Below are positions 5,014-55,216 of a stretch of 64,000 bases of DNA, piece after piece. The stretch lies in the IMG/VR virus record IMGVR_UViG_3300021519_000008, positions 1 to 64,000 of that record. One strand, given 5' to 3'. This DNA is from a virus. Under the pieces are notes generated by a model. It did not search any database, was not told where the DNA came from, and saw nothing but the letters and a program-made list of their open reading frames with translations. The stretch's first letter is position 1. Each line of letters opens with the position of its first letter. The position numbers and the translations under genes were made by a program.

Positions 5014-5046
5014 AGTTTTAGTTTTTAAGTTTATTTTTAAATTTAG

Positions 5047-5118
5047 TATCCCCTGGGTGAATCGAACACACCTTTAACAGGATGAAATCCTGCTGTCCTA
5101 CCAATAGACGAAAGGGAC
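5047..5118 (-). tRNA. tRNA-Glu(TTC)
   Basis: A complete 72-nt cloverleaf on the minus strand. Acceptor GTCCCTT (5112-5118) pairs with AGGGGAT (5048-5054) with G-T wobbles; the discriminator is A5047. The anticodon stem GCAGG/CCTGT closes the 7-nt loop ATTTCAT, which has T33 and anticodon TTC. The T-loop is TTCGATT. No CCA is encoded. Confidence 0.9.
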
Positions 5119-5748: not shown

Positions 5749-5944
5749 TACCTTCTTCTTTAAGAGACTTAAGATAAAAGTGTCCTACTACTGTAAGTAA
5801 ACATAAAGTTAAAACTTCTGTAGTAAACACATAAGTAAAGGCTTGTGTTCCCATGCTACTAATAACATCAGGAAGAGCCATGATAAATACCATACCTGCA
5901 CATACAGCGATGACAAGTAAGAAAGTGGACGGTTTGATTTTCAT
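5741..5944 (-). CDS. Small two-TM membrane protein
   Basis: 67 aa with two hydrophobic segments, about residues 6-28 and 37-58, and a charged C-terminus (KSLKEEGND). The topology would place both short termini in the cytoplasm, as in small phage holins or superinfection-exclusion proteins. It is the first gene of the compact 5126-5944 string and is preceded by a low-complexity GTTTA-rich spacer (5945-5990). Holin function is possible, but the late lysis cassette has better candidates. Confidence 0.55.
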   Translation of the reverse strand: MKIKPSTFLLVIAVCAGMVFIMALPDVISSMGTQAFTYVFTTEVLTLCLLTVVGHFYLKSLKEEGND

Positions 5945-6019
5945 ATTTTTTAGTTTTTAGTTTGTTTAGTTTGTTTAGTTAGTTTAGTTTATACTAGTTG
6001 GTATTATACCCTTAGGTAT

Positions 6020-6074
6020 AAAAAAACTACAAGGTCCTCTAGACGTGTTAGTAGGATAAACCATACCTTGTAGT
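6020..6074 (-). terminator. Terminator behind tRNA-like gene
   Basis: ACTACAAGGT (6065-6074 on the minus strand) pairs perfectly over 10 bp with ACCTTGTAGT (6027-6036), with a 28-nt loop, followed by seven T. It starts 3 nt after the tRNA-like RNA ends. The long loop is unusual for a terminator. Confidence 0.65.
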
Positions 6075-6076
6075 AG

Positions 6077-6212
6077 TAGTACATTTGGGACTCAAACCCA
6101 AGATAGTATCCATCAGCTCAACGATAAGCAGATACTCCCCAACATTGCAATATGTGCATTACTCTTTTTTAAATTCGTTGATTGGGAACGTGTGTCACCT
6201 CGCCTATGTACT
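6077..6212 (-). tRNA. tRNA-like RNA, possible Leu(CAA) with insertion
   Basis: Acceptor AGTACAT (6206-6212) pairs with ATGTACT (6078-6084), discriminator A at 6077. There is a D-arm (GCG/CGT, GG in the loop) and a T-arm TTGGG-TTTGAGT-CCCAA. The central part is too long: TTCCCAA/TTGGGGA closes a loop of about 40 nt where a 7-nt anticodon loop is expected, and GTATC/GATAC forms a long variable arm as in type II tRNAs. If the anticodon stem is TCCCA, the loop starts A-T-CAA, giving Leu(CAA), which fits the long variable arm. Intron, tRNA mimic or pseudogene are all open. Confidence 0.5.
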
Positions 6213-6293
6213 ATTTAAAAAAGGCCTTTCACCTATTAGTAGCCAATAGCTGACTATACTGCATTGCTTCATCAGCACTTATGCTATGCTTTA

Positions 6294-6412
6294 CTTCCAT
6301 CTGCACTCAGTTGTAACGTGCTATCCACATTTAAGTGGCCAATACACTAGCTGGATATCCCGCTTCCTTTACAACTGCTCACCCTTTGGAAGTGAGTTAT
6401 GGTGCATTAAAG
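6294..6412 (-). ncRNA. Structured RNA, copy 2 of a 119-nt pair
   Basis: Same length and frame of conserved blocks as the copy at 6606-6724: it starts CTTTAATGCA, has a hairpin CTCAC/GTGAG closing a TTCC-AAAGG loop, then CAGTTGTAA pairing with TTACAACTG, and ends TGCAGATGGAAG. The enclosed arms are AGC/GCT and GTGTAT/ATAGCAC with CCAC/GTGG at the tip. It is not a known riboswitch, ribozyme or tmRNA that I recognise. Confidence 0.65.
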
Positions 6413-6605
6413 AAAGCAGTTTAAACACTTGCCTAGGTGTAGGATTTCATCCCATAGAGAGTTGTTTTACATTACGTATCATGGCTCACAAGCGATACAA
6501 CCTTTCCAGGAATTTAAATTTTGGGTTTTATATAAGAGTTCTGTAACGTAGAGACTCATAACTTACCGAATAGTTTTTATTAAGGTTTACTAATAACCTA
6601 TAGTA

Positions 6606-6724
6606 CTTCACTCTGCATTCAGTTGTAATATCTAAAGGACACATATTTCAGCGTTAGATATTAAGAGCCCATCCTTGCTCATTACAACTGCTATCCCTTG
6701 TGAAGATAGAATGATGCATTAAAG
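6606..6724 (-). ncRNA. Structured RNA, copy 1 of a 119-nt pair
   Basis: Compared with copy 2, the first hairpin is CTATC/GATAG instead of CTCAC/GTGAG, i.e. two compensatory pair changes (A-T to C-G and T-A to A-T). CAGTTGTAA/TTACAACTG is kept. The enclosed arms change sequence but stay paired (GAGC/GCTC, and a 10-bp TAATATCTAA/TTAGATATTA stem). A hairpin GCGAACT/AGTTCGT and an 8-bp AATCATCA/TGATGATT hairpin lie just 5'. Length is exactly 119 nt in both. The RNA would be made on the minus strand, upstream of the tRNA-like gene. Confidence 0.65.
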
Positions 6725-6803
6725 CAACGAACTGAGAAGTTCGCTTAGAATCAGTTAAGGAATCATCAGGCTAATGATGATTACTACATAAGAGAAGAGA
6801 GAA

Positions 6804-7186
6804 GACATAAGAATAAGGGAAGGAAGGGAAAGGGTAATCCTTTAATCTCTTTTAATCTTTTTTAATCTCTTTTAAGGTTATTTAACGTAAAGTCAACAAT
6901 TTATATATAACGTAGCATTAAAACCCCACAATTACCCACTTTTAGGTGTTAAATAGAAGATTGAAGGGAGTGGTTCCCCACTATTTACCACTACATATAC
7001 CCCCCAATTGTCAGGAAAAAGTTAAACATTATGACAATTGTCTCGCAAAACACGGGGTTATGACTTACAAAAGTTAAACAAAACGTAAATTAGGTAGTTT
7101 GATGACATTAGACTGACAATATACCCGCAATATAAGAGAGAGATAAGAGAGTGATAAGAGAATTTAATTTCTCTTCTTCCCACTGC
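6804..7186. other. AT-rich intergenic region with repeats
   Basis: About 380 bp without a credible gene. It holds TTTTAATCTC-type direct repeats (6838-6876), a hairpin AGTGGT/ACCACT (about 6969-6993), an inverted repeat CAATTGTC (7005-7012) / GACAATTG (7033-7040), and a direct repeat AAAAGTTAAACA (about 7017 and 7069). This could be a regulatory or replication-origin region, but no DnaA-box-like array or firm promoter was seen. Confidence 0.4.
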
Positions 7187-7219
7187 TGTCTGATTACTGT
7201 CTGATTACTGTCTGATTTA
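7187..7219. repeat. Tandem 11-bp repeat, three copies
   Basis: TGTCTGATTAC occurs twice in a row and is followed by TGTCTGATTTA. It lies just 3' of the 179-aa gene and next to its hairpin. Confidence 0.85.
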
Positions 7220-7238
7220 GGGGGTATTTCTACCCCCC
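7219..7238 (-). terminator. Hairpin after 179-aa gene
   Basis: GGGGGGTA-gaaa-TACCCCC, a near-perfect stem with a GAAA tetraloop on the minus strand, 8 nt past the stop at 7246. No T-run follows, so it may stabilise the 3' end or terminate weakly. Confidence 0.55.
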
Positions 7239-7245
7239 TTTCAGA

Positions 7246-7785
7246 TTAATCTTGCTCTACTGCTACGCTTTCTACCACATTCTCTGTGATAGCACTGAGG
7301 TCAGTCTTCCTTACAAGGATGTCAAGCATCTCTGCATCGTAAGCACGAAGGAATGACTTACGGTAAATTGCTTTTCCGTTCTCGTCTGTTACCTTAGCAC
7401 CTGAGCGGTCTTTCTTGTAGTTACTTTCGTAGACCACAGGTTGACCTTTGTCATTACCTACAACACCTAAGGTCACTGCCTCTGCAAGTGATGTTGTTTC
7501 GATTACTTGGATACCATAGTTGTTGTTTACCAACTGTGATAGATTTACATCTAACTGAACAGGGGAGTCTTTGTCACCTGTAATAGTAGAAGCGTCCATT
7601 CCAAAAATCTTTGCGAACTTTTCTTCGCTAAAATTCTGAATGCAAGTCTTTGTCCATTCGCTACCTTTACCTGTAAAGACAGCCATAGGGTTGTTGTTGC
7701 GAATACCGCAAAGAACTGAGAGAGAGTTTGCTTTGTTGCGCCAAACGCTTAAAGCAATGATTGGAGAAATAGATGGGTTAAACAT
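7246..7785 (-). CDS. Hypothetical protein
   Basis: 179 aa. The N-terminal 15 residues are hydrophobic but include Trp-Arg and do not form a clear signal peptide. The body has a mixed alpha/beta pattern ('MAVFTGKGSEWTKTCIQNFSEEKFAKIFGMD', 'GIQVIETTSLAEAVTLGVVG') and the C-terminus is acidic. It uses GC-richer codons than neighbouring genes, suggesting strong expression or different history. No family is recognised. It is single, with a spacer rich in GGAGGA/AAGGAGG-like purines upstream on the opposite strand and a GC hairpin behind it. Confidence 0.6.
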   Translation of the reverse strand: MFNPSISPIIALSVWRNKANSLSVLCGIRNNNPMAVFTGKGSEWTKTCIQNFSEEKFAKIFGMDASTITGDKDSPVQLDVNLSQLVNNNYGIQVIETTSLAEAVTLGVVGNDKGQPVVYESNYKKDRSGAKVTDENGKAIYRKSFLRAYDAEMLDILVRKTDLSAITENVVESVAVEQD

Positions 7786-7860
7786 AGTAAAGTAGATAGG
7801 AGGAAATCACAACCAAGCAAGGAAGGAGGAGACCACGTTAAATAAGGAAAAGAAGAAGCA

Positions 7861-8001
7861 TTACGCTTCTACCCAAATAATACCTTCGCAGGTCTTTATC
7901 CTTAACTTTTTTACAATTCCGTTAAATGATATGCGACCTAAGATTTGTCCGTAAGGTAGGCTTCTGCCTACGATAGGTAATGGTTTAAGTATATTGTACA
8001 T
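7861..8001 (-). CDS. 46-aa protein, paralogue of 5608-5748
   Basis: 46 aa: 'ILKPLPIVGRSLPYGQILGRISF...' ending 'GIIWVEA'. It shares length and the LKP ... P-x-G-x-IL-x-R ... W pattern with the product of 5608-5748. Its start follows the hairpin plus CTCTTCTCT boundary (8007-8034) that separates it from the 99-aa gene. The predicted fold is a small beta barrel. Function unknown. Confidence 0.5.
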   Translation of the reverse strand: MYNILKPLPIVGRSLPYGQILGRISFNGIVKKLRIKTCEGIIWVEA

Positions 8002-8015
8002 AGATTAGAGAAGAG

Positions 8016-8034
8016 AAAAAGGGGCTTTAGCCCC
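8016..8034 (-). terminator. Hairpin-T terminator before 46-aa gene
   Basis: GGGGCT-aa-AGCCCC followed by TTTTT on the minus strand; the T-run merges into the CTCTTCTCT motif. Confidence 0.75.
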
Positions 8035-8037
8035 TAA

Positions 8038-8337
8038 TTACAGATTATGCCGATGCATATTCTTATAAAAATCTATAAGCCACCATGGTATTTCATAATA
8101 CTCAGGTTCTTGTTCAAAGTAGTAGTGGTTTTTATACCTTTTCATAACGCTTACCCAATAGTTATCTGACCAAAGGAAATAAATGTGGTACCCTCCTACT
8201 AAGAGTTGAGCAGTAGTGCTATTCTTTCTTCTTAGTTTTACAGTATTAGTAGGGGCTTGTAGTCCAAGTCTTTCTATTACTTCCGTTACTCTAACTTTTA
8301 AGTTAGCAGTTCTTTCTTGTATAGTTTGTATATCCAT
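8038..8337 (-). CDS. Hypothetical protein
   Basis: 99 aa when started at 8337 (MDIQTIQERTANLK...). The longer frame to 8388 would cross the terminator hairpin and boundary motif that precede every other gene here, so the internal Met is preferred. The N-terminus is a probable helix; the rest is rich in Tyr and Trp (HIYFLWSDNYWVSVMKRYKNHYYFEQEPEYYEIPWW), with a beta-sheet pattern. No family recognised. It follows the signal-peptide gene 8363-8686 in the string of small genes. Confidence 0.6.
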   Translation of the reverse strand: MDIQTIQERTANLKVRVTEVIERLGLQAPTNTVKLRRKNSTTAQLLVGGYHIYFLWSDNYWVSVMKRYKNHYYFEQEPEYYEIPWWLIDFYKNMHRHNL

Positions 8338-18811: not shown

Positions 18812-19513
18812 ATGGCTTATGTCTACAGACATATCAGGTTAGATAAGAATGTACCTTTCTATATTGGATTAGGTACAGATTCTAATTATTCTAGAGCACA
18901 CCAAACTAAAAGTAGAAATCAACACTGGCATAATGTTGTAAAGAACTCAGAGTATAGAGTAGAGATTATGTTAGATCATTTATCTTTTGAGGAGGCTTGT
19001 GTAAAAGAAATAGAACTGATAAGTGTGTATGGCAGAGTAGATACTTGTGGAGGTAGTCTAGTTAATTGGACTGATGGAGGTCAAGGTACTTTAGGTTGGA
19101 GACATGAAGTTGGATACTGGACAGGAAAATCCTTACCAGAATCTATGCGTAAGAATCTATCTGAAGTAGCTAAATTAAGAGTGGGAGAGAAGAACCCCTT
19201 TTATGGAAAGAATCATTCTGAAGAAACAAAACAAAAACTTAAACAGAGTAGATTAGGTAGCACCCTTACAGAAGAAACTAAACTTAAGATAAAAGAGTCT
19301 TTAAAGAACTCTGAAGCTTTTAAGAATAGAAAACATTCAGTAAGACTTGGTGCAGATAATCCTAAGTCTAAACAAGTAATCAACACTGAAACAGGAGAGA
19401 CTTATGAGAATCTTAGAATTGCTTCAGAGATTACTGAAATAAGTTACAACAAGTTAAGATCCTATTGCCAAGGAAAAGTTAAAAGCAAAACAAATTGGAA
19501 TTATTTACTATAA
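18812..19513 (+). CDS. GIY-YIG homing endonuclease with NUMOD motifs
   Basis: 233 aa. The N-terminal domain carries the GIY-YIG pattern ('VYRHI' and 'FYIGLG', residues 3-20, then 'EACVKEIELISVYGR' with the metal-binding Glu). NUMOD3-type DNA-binding motifs follow ('KNPFYGKNHSEETKQKL' and repeats, about 126-170), then a NUMOD1-like/intron-encoded-nuclease repeat at the C-terminus (SKQVINTETGETYENLRIA...). It is a free-standing homing endonuclease of the T4 Seg/group I intron type, inserted 3 nt after the holin-like gene and before the endolysin candidate. It probably spreads by cutting relatives lacking it. Confidence 0.85.
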   Translation: MAYVYRHIRLDKNVPFYIGLGTDSNYSRAHQTKSRNQHWHNVVKNSEYRVEIMLDHLSFEEACVKEIELISVYGRVDTCGGSLVNWTDGGQGTLGWRHEVGYWTGKSLPESMRKNLSEVAKLRVGEKNPFYGKNHSEETKQKLKQSRLGSTLTEETKLKIKESLKNSEAFKNRKHSVRLGADNPKSKQVINTETGETYENLRIASEITEISYNKLRSYCQGKVKSKTNWNYLL

Positions 19514-54329: not shown

Positions 54330-54485
54330 ATGGCAGCTAAAGCATCTAAATCAAATACATCTTCATCTTCAAAGTTTACAGTTAAACCTAAGGTAAGAAG
54401 AAAGGGAGTTGTAGCAAAGACTAAAGCATCTAAGCTAAAGTCTAGCAAAAATTATCTCAAGAAAAAAGTTGGGCAAGGAAAGTAA
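54330..54485 (+). CDS. Very small Lys-rich protein
   Basis: 51 aa, about 30 percent Lys/Arg (MAAKASKSNTSSSSKFTV, KPKVRRKGVVAKTK...), ending 'YLKKKVGQGK'. Its stop shares one base with the next start (TAATG). It resembles the basic tails of neighbouring virion proteins and may be packaged with DNA. Confidence 0.55.
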   Translation: MAAKASKSNTSSSSKFTVKPKVRRKGVVAKTKASKLKSSKNYLKKKVGQGK

Positions 54486-55216
54486 TGATAGTCTACAAAG
54501 CAACTAACCTAATTAATGGTAAAGTATATGTAGGTTATACAACTAAGACTTTAGATCAAAGAATTAAAACTCATTTAAATAAAGCAAACTGTTTAACTCA
54601 AAAACACTACACTCAAGCTTTTAAATTAGCTTTAAGAAAATATGGTGTAGAAAGTTTTTTTTGGGAGGAACTTGTTGTATGTACTACTAAAGAAGAGGCG
54701 TGTGAAAAAGAGAAAGAATTTATAGCTAAATATAATTGTATTGCTCCATTAGGGTATAACATGACTTTTGGAGGAGAGGGAGGAATACAGTCAGAAGAAG
54801 TAAAAATTAAAATATCAAACTCTCTCAAACTTCGTTACTTAAGTAATCCTGAGTTGTGGACTAACAGTGTTTTAGTTAATGCAGATACAGAACAGAGAAA
54901 GTTATATGCAAAGAAAGCAGTTGCTACTAAAGTAAAGAATGGGTTTAAATACAAAACAGGATTCACTAGATCTATAGAATCTAGAGAAAAGATGAAAAGT
55001 ACTAAAAGAGAAAAAAATGCTTGTACTTGGTATAACTTTAAGACAAAAACTTTTGTAATAGCAGCAGTTCCAGATATGGGTGAACTTACGGGATTATCTG
55101 TTGGAACATTTAATCATCTAAAACATGACAGAATTCATATTACTAAATGTGGGTGGCTATACGTTCCAAAAGAATCTTCTTACATAGAATTAGAAAAATC
55201 AGTAAAAAAGGGTTGA
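54485..55216 (+). CDS. GIY-YIG homing endonuclease
   Basis: 243 aa. GIY-YIG core 'IVYKATNLINGKVYVGYTTKTLDQRIKTHL' (read in parts; residues 2-31), then 'EACEKEKEFIAKYNC' with the metal-binding Glu, 'GYNMTFGGEGG', NUMOD3-like 'SEEVKIKISNSLK', and a C-terminal DNA-binding part (NACTWYNFKTKTFVIAAVPDMGELTGLSVGTFNHL). It is a free-standing homing endonuclease of a different lineage from 18812-19513. The AT-rich codon use and position between virion genes, followed at once by a terminator, suit a recent insertion. Confidence 0.85.
   Translation: MIVYKATNLINGKVYVGYTTKTLDQRIKTHLNKANCLTQKHYTQAFKLALRKYGVESFFWEELVVCTTKEEACEKEKEFIAKYNCIAPLGYNMTFGGEGGIQSEEVKIKISNSLKLRYLSNPELWTNSVLVNADTEQRKLYAKKAVATKVKNGFKYKTGFTRSIESREKMKSTKREKNACTWYNFKTKTFVIAAVPDMGELTGLSVGTFNHLKHDRIHITKCGWLYVPKESSYIELEKSVKKG

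Follow-up and report, generated by a model that had tools for sequence, protein, structure and literature searches.

What are two similar segments on the minus strand of a crAss-related viral genome, and what might they do there? The segments lie in a stretch of 64,000 nucleotides (the window, to which all coordinates without a locus name refer) that forms part of a 74,087-base IMG/VR virus record and encodes a large terminase whose closest GenBank counterparts are those of Leptolyngbya phage Lbo-JY46 (38.8%) and Cellulophaga phage phi4:1 (30%). The first-pass annotation had described a structured RNA of 119 nt at 6412-6294 and again at 6724-6606, and we recovered both segments with the same sequence blocks at exactly these positions; covariance model R1 matched 6412-6291 with 80 bits and 6724-6603 with 74 bits. 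The shared length is a coincidence, as members of the same class span ~80 to more than 200 nt.

In the predicted fold of copy 1 (6294..6412, minus strand; class I, GUGC type), stem P1 is formed by 6406-6402/6306-6302, P2 by 6396-6392/6382-6378 and P3 by 6377-6369/6316-6308, while the P2 loop (6391-6387) pairs with the tail (6299-6295) in a pseudoknot and a variable arm occupies 6368-6317. The corresponding parts of copy 2 (6606..6724, minus strand; class I, AUGC type) are P1 at 6718-6714/6618-6614, P2 at 6709-6705/6695-6691, P3 at 6690-6682/6628-6620, the pseudoknot between loop 6704-6700 and tail 6611-6607, and the arm at 6681-6629. The two compensatory changes that had been reported for the P2 hairpins (CTATC/GATAG versus CTCAC/GTGAG) are present in the sequence, and P1 (TGCAC/GTGCA versus TGCAT/ATGCA) as well as the pseudoknot (loop TTCCA with tail TGGAA versus loop TTCAC with tail GTGAA) also differ in a compensatory manner. 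The arms enclosed by CAGTTGTAA/TTACAACTG do vary as had been proposed, but they are not one covarying homologous arm, each copy carrying a different one. Compared with dinucleotide shuffles the folds scored z values of -2.44 (copy 1) and -2.08 (copy 2), which are modest taken alone.

Pattern scans of viral contigs from IMG/VR, the first of which gave numerous chance hits in its raw output and after which hits were read individually, yielded at least 94 distinct class I members and at least 21 members of a larger class II (230-370 nt) under strict rules, or at least 27 of the latter under a looser rule. Class I members consist of an outer stem P0, P1 (UGCAC/GUGCA), the hairpin P2 and P3 (CAGUUGUAA/UUACAACUG) with the variable arm, and the P2 loop pairs with the tail immediately 3' of P1. 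An alignment of 49 spliced class I cores, from which the arms had been cut out, shows a conserved core that is predicted to be a three-way junction of P1, P2 and P3 combined with the pseudoknot and P0. Over its 24 pairs 97% of the cells were paired and ten pairs exhibited double changes, amounting to 111 double-change cells compared with 26 +/- 4 in shuffled and at most 11 in register-slid alignments, in support of the earlier proposal that the RNA structure is under selection. All five pairs of P2, two each of P1 and the pseudoknot and one of P3 were affected, and in the pseudoknot variants CCC/GGG, CCA/UGG and CAC/GUG both sides change together. Because members were gathered and spliced by motif, the statistics for P1 and P3 are biased by the search patterns, which left P2, the pseudoknot strand and P0 unconstrained. 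P0 begins one base 5' of AATGC and directly 3' of the pseudoknot strand and is variable in sequence; its mean score of 8.3 exceeded the 6.28 +/- 0.24 obtained after exchanging flanks between elements (highest value 7.0 among 300 shuffles). The sequence of P3 is almost invariant, which suggests recognition of the sequence or a tertiary contact. G-U pairs far outnumber A-C mismatches on the RNA strand (60 versus 9), which, together with the co-orientation with the nearest genes described below, favours an RNA read on this strand rather than a DNA element.

Class II is predicted to be a larger form of the same core: a domain with two arms (P4, P5, P6) and the organization GTGGATATAAAGACTTCTTA-[P5 arm]-TAAGATGTGAAACCAC-CTGATTA-[P6 arm]-TAATCAG-CTCCCAAGG is inserted in the P2 loop of the class I scaffold. 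Its alignment of 26 sequences had 96.1% of the cells paired, 20 pairs with double changes (10.7 in shuffled and at most 7 in slid alignments) and 97 double-change cells compared with at most 12 after sliding, part of the changes in P6 being due to two variants whose registers differ by one base. Strong covariation was thus seen in the homologues of both classes.

No catalogued family accounts for these RNAs. In the window Rfam 15 gave no match to them at gathering level and none that was credible over 5900-7300 at E values up to 10, in agreement with the first-pass annotation, which had not recognized the family; matches at relaxed thresholds were due to chance only. In the carrier loci Rfam 15 returned nothing for the RNA, but only tRNAs, a sub-threshold S15 leader and a DUF805b hit away from the elements. 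Searches by blastn with one member of each class found nothing credible among 50,697 GenBank phage records or among GenBank plasmids. A match in MT839011 was rejected as a bare 36 nt with the core missing, and a 19-bit R1 match in the cultured crAss001, located inside the stabilization-protein gene, was taken as chance; phi4:1, cr50_1 and Lbo-JY46 gave no R1 match. The commonest 3' end had a single occurrence in the GTDB genomes, on an 8-kb contig binned as Neisseriaceae, which we take to be a misbinned phage contig since a strand switch is followed by the RNA in the same layout as in the phage contigs. The open-access literature yielded no description of the RNA, although it may be described elsewhere. 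The earlier annotation had named a match to a known Rfam family and a lack of covarying homologues as routes to its refutation, and both routes failed. Comparative sequence evidence therefore identifies the two window segments as members of a putative new, previously uncatalogued family of phage-encoded structured RNAs, which has been missed so far because no member was found in the GenBank phage records or in Rfam. The pseudoknot, P0, the class II architecture and the exchange of arms between phages go beyond what had been annotated.

With 167 distinct arms, most of them dissimilar to one another, the variable part of the family is highly diverse. At E<1e-3 there were 23 similar pairs, in eight of which a class I and a class II scaffold bear the same P3 arm, and in one of which a P3 arm corresponds to a P6 arm; some arms recur on different scaffolds with 94-99% identity. 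Compared with shuffles, arm folds were slightly better (mean z -0.7 to -1.1 for 161 arms), and changes within similar pairs comprised 11 double, 8 single compatible and no breaking ones, the structure having been fitted to the same pairs. Four arms contain T-arm-like hairpins compared with a mean of 0.85 in shuffles, an enrichment that we rejected as not established since shuffles reach five. For 11 of 14 arm-sharing pairs, in which loci of 1.4 to 14.6 kb were compared, DNA similarity was confined to the RNA elements or included one extra short match. In four of these pairs the terminases differ widely: L125/L134 (30% terminase identity, RNA 96% identical over 129 nt), L166/L271 (23%; 94% over 84 nt), L173/L253 (26%; 97% over 106 nt) and L161/L264 (21%; 94% over 83 nt). 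Assembly chimaeras are an unlikely origin of the shared arms, as the members of all four terminase-tested pairs have different metagenome ids and their RNAs are 94-97% rather than 100% identical. Shared stretches frequently start and stop within the conserved scaffold, which points to recombination through the scaffold on either side of the arm, and one whole class I unit in L096 is missing from L274 between the same flanks. These comparisons show diverse arms that appear to pass from one scaffold to another and among distantly related phages; given closely matching arms in such distant genomes, these uncultivated crAss-like phages seem to trade RNA parts.

In the window both copies belong to a 519-nt cassette (6219..6736, minus strand) consisting of copy 2, the inter-copy module mid1, copy 1 and a tail module, and this cassette is absent from the relative L001, where the flanks are 94% identical upstream and 80-86% identical downstream. 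Relatives L001-L004 were reached through the upstream gene (7246..7785, minus strand), whose 179-aa product has a weak PHROG match (E 0.007). As these close relatives do not carry the RNA, it is dispensable. Mid1 (6413..6605, minus strand) contains CCTGGAAAGGTTGTA..CGCTTGTGAGCCATG..ACAAC and ends in CCTAGGCAAGTGTTTAAACTGC; a similar module sits between two copies in L061, and related segments were found in L170, L284 and L287. The mid1 region follows the pattern CCTGNAAAGGTTG-stem-GCTTGTAGGCCAT-stem-GTAAT..ACAACC with varying stems in different phages (L061, L170, L284, L287 and L296). The tail module 3' of copy 1 (6219..6293, minus strand) has a terminator-like end, AGGTGAAAGGCCTTTTTT, and is conserved in L061 and L090. 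Further candidate structures follow on the same strand. A segment at ~6218-6090, also present in L001 and L002, has pairable ends and a T-arm-like hairpin (AATAGTACATAGGCGAGGTGACACACG..CTTGGGTTTGAGTCCCAAATGTACTACTA) and is perhaps a candidate for an unusual tRNA-like RNA; neither ARAGORN nor Rfam called it. At ~6078-6030 a hairpin conserved in L061, L253 and L298 (CTACAAGGTATGG..CCTACTAACACGTCTAGAGGACCTTGTAG) precedes a T run. The only ARAGORN or Rfam match in the window is a tRNA-Glu (5046-5118, with the Rfam match at 5047-5118), and ORFs 18812-19513 and 54485-55216 resemble GIY-YIG homing endonucleases by eye.

Across the family, members are intergenic and in the sense orientation of their nearest genes (47:4 upstream, 55:3 downstream). 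Among 16 loci with 4 kb available on both sides, an opposite-strand ORF occurred within 4 kb upstream in 15 (median 2.6 kb) and downstream in two, and with this upstream strand switch the RNA is probably promoter-proximal within its gene block. Many members come immediately after a hairpin that includes a stop codon and after a T-rich tract. For 38 of 96 members an ATG ORF begins 20-80 nt downstream, with no obvious terminator in those member-to-ORF gaps that were read by eye, and further RNA modules or tRNAs also occur downstream. No gene family was common to more than nine loci, and a single-gene riboswitch was rejected since the downstream gene is not conserved. A dedicated promoter at a fixed distance was likewise rejected, as the upstream sequences contained no such promoter-like motif and their only positional signal was T at -1/-2, and a link to tRNAs was rejected because many carriers have no tRNA in the locus. 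In 36 of 42 records one to three R1 matches were clustered at a single genomic site, a figure that describes copy number and not prevalence since most of these records were chosen by pattern hit. A homologue of the window terminase was present in 39 of 44 carrier or related records.

Other small structures were noted in these loci. A second RNA motif has an invariant loop, ATATAATGCGAAGTGAAA, and stems that covary and take many different sequences (RNA-strand coordinates L015 8558, L082 3406, L096 2703, L089 1814, L144 4726 and others); it is usually preceded by a CCCTAGAAGCGGGG-type hairpin, often has a class I element or an ORF immediately downstream, and its loop resembles the internal loop of class II (ATATAA..GTGAAA). 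A closed structure of ~200 nt, AACAAACTCTCTT...AAGAGAGTTTGTT, is located just after a tRNA-Glu-like sequence in L002 (~7964-8170) and L003 (~7727-7925). In L187 (887-1274) ARAGORN identified a tmRNA gene with the tag ADLYPSRKASAKVINLTPVAEQELELAA on a contig that also bears an RNA of the class I/II family.

Comparison with known systems revealed partial likenesses. Integron attC sites share conserved ends, a variable central part and modular exchange; their core sites are RYYYAAC/GTTRRRY, whereas the new RNA ends in AATGCAC and GTGCAGAGGG, shows evidence for the RNA strand and is linked to no recombinase family. Over the window elements neither ARAGORN nor Rfam RF00005 gave a tRNA or tmRNA match, and no conserved toxin gene lies adjacent as expected of type III toxin-antitoxin systems (ToxI), neighbour families being limited to nine loci at most. 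The new RNA lacks the tested defining feature of GOLLD/ROOL, of the flavivirus xrRNAs and of HK022 put RNA. The phage RNAs GOLLD and ROOL, whose function is not known, often lie near tRNA islands and resemble the new RNA in joining a conserved and a variable part in an elaborate pseudoknotted structure (PMC12286853); their family models do not match it in Rfam/Infernal searches, however, and its conserved core is much smaller, its arms are exchanged between scaffolds and its proximity to tRNAs is inconsistent. The xrRNAs likewise combine a P1-closed three-way junction with a hairpin loop that pairs just 3' of the junction (PMC5760640), but this is L3, the loop of the second hairpin, while the new RNA uses the P2 loop of the first hairpin, has no sequence similarity to xrRNAs and derives from DNA phages of bacteria. 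The put RNAs of HK022, which lie near early promoters and suppress termination without a phage protein, are also promoter-proximal phage RNA structures next to terminators with no dedicated protein (PMC9378689); put, however, consists of two stem-loops of ~70 nt, the new core of a pseudoknotted three-way junction with exchangeable arms.

As to function, we lean, tentatively, towards a structural RNA that would be released from phage transcripts and act in trans with exchangeable, host-facing arms. In the mechanism we infer, the RNA would be transcribed together with promoter-proximal phage genes, fold on its core and, through release or protection, persist as a stable RNA in the manner of phage tRNAs. 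The near-invariant core would be recognized by a common partner of phage or host, and the arms would confer specificity for a host target that changes, for instance a factor of defence or RNA metabolism; this would account for both their diversity and their spread between phages by recombination via the conserved scaffold stretches flanking each arm. The arm diversity could instead reflect weak constraint, and the 38 of 96 members just before an ORF fit a cis-acting leader equally well. Such a leader or intercistronic element, kept in the mRNA and controlling transcription, stability or translation of the following genes, is the main rival to the trans-acting RNA and a realistic, if somewhat less probable, reading. 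It could act on the elongating polymerase like put RNA, block an exonuclease or mark a processing site after the terminator-like hairpin of the preceding gene, and the sense orientation, the promoter-proximal location, the position directly after stop codons within a hairpin and T-rich tract and the HK022 precedent (PMC9378689) are all in its favour. On the other hand, the gene downstream is not conserved, members are sometimes followed by RNA modules or tRNAs, and long exchangeable arms as well as class II elements of 230-370 nt exceed the usual needs of a leader.

An extended version of the trans-acting RNA, in which the family would be a combinatorial platform whose knotted core carries host-facing arms swapped across phage families as a takeover or counter-defence system, strikes us as rather unlikely. 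It is improbable that the cassette is one ornate RNA of ~500 nt of the GOLLD/ROOL type assembling into an RNA-only complex: the cassette occurs either whole or not at all, other modules share the same clusters and GOLLD and ROOL are known from phages, yet neither matches in Rfam, the copies in most genomes are single and free-standing, and class I cores are also found where mid modules are missing. Least probable is a selfish element, either a small transposable unit or an attC-like single-stranded recombination signal whose fold would serve its own spread. The occurrence of nearly identical units between unrelated flanks, bounded at or close to the ends of the element, and the unit gained or lost between repeats in L096 versus L274 would fit; exchange boundaries often fall on conserved stretches within the scaffold, though, as expected of homologous recombination, and the one to three copies in a single cluster per genome, the excess of G-U over A-C, the strand bias and ends unlike the attC consensus all speak against it.

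The analysis adds a putative RNA family with strong covariation support to a widespread group of phages. Arm exchange across phages whose terminases are 21-30% identical would correspond, at the RNA level, to the shuffling of protein domains. Should the arms be host-facing, they may serve as pointers to host factors worth seeking. CrAss-like phages carry their own RNA polymerase, and if the element is cis-acting it would represent a new control point in their transcription.
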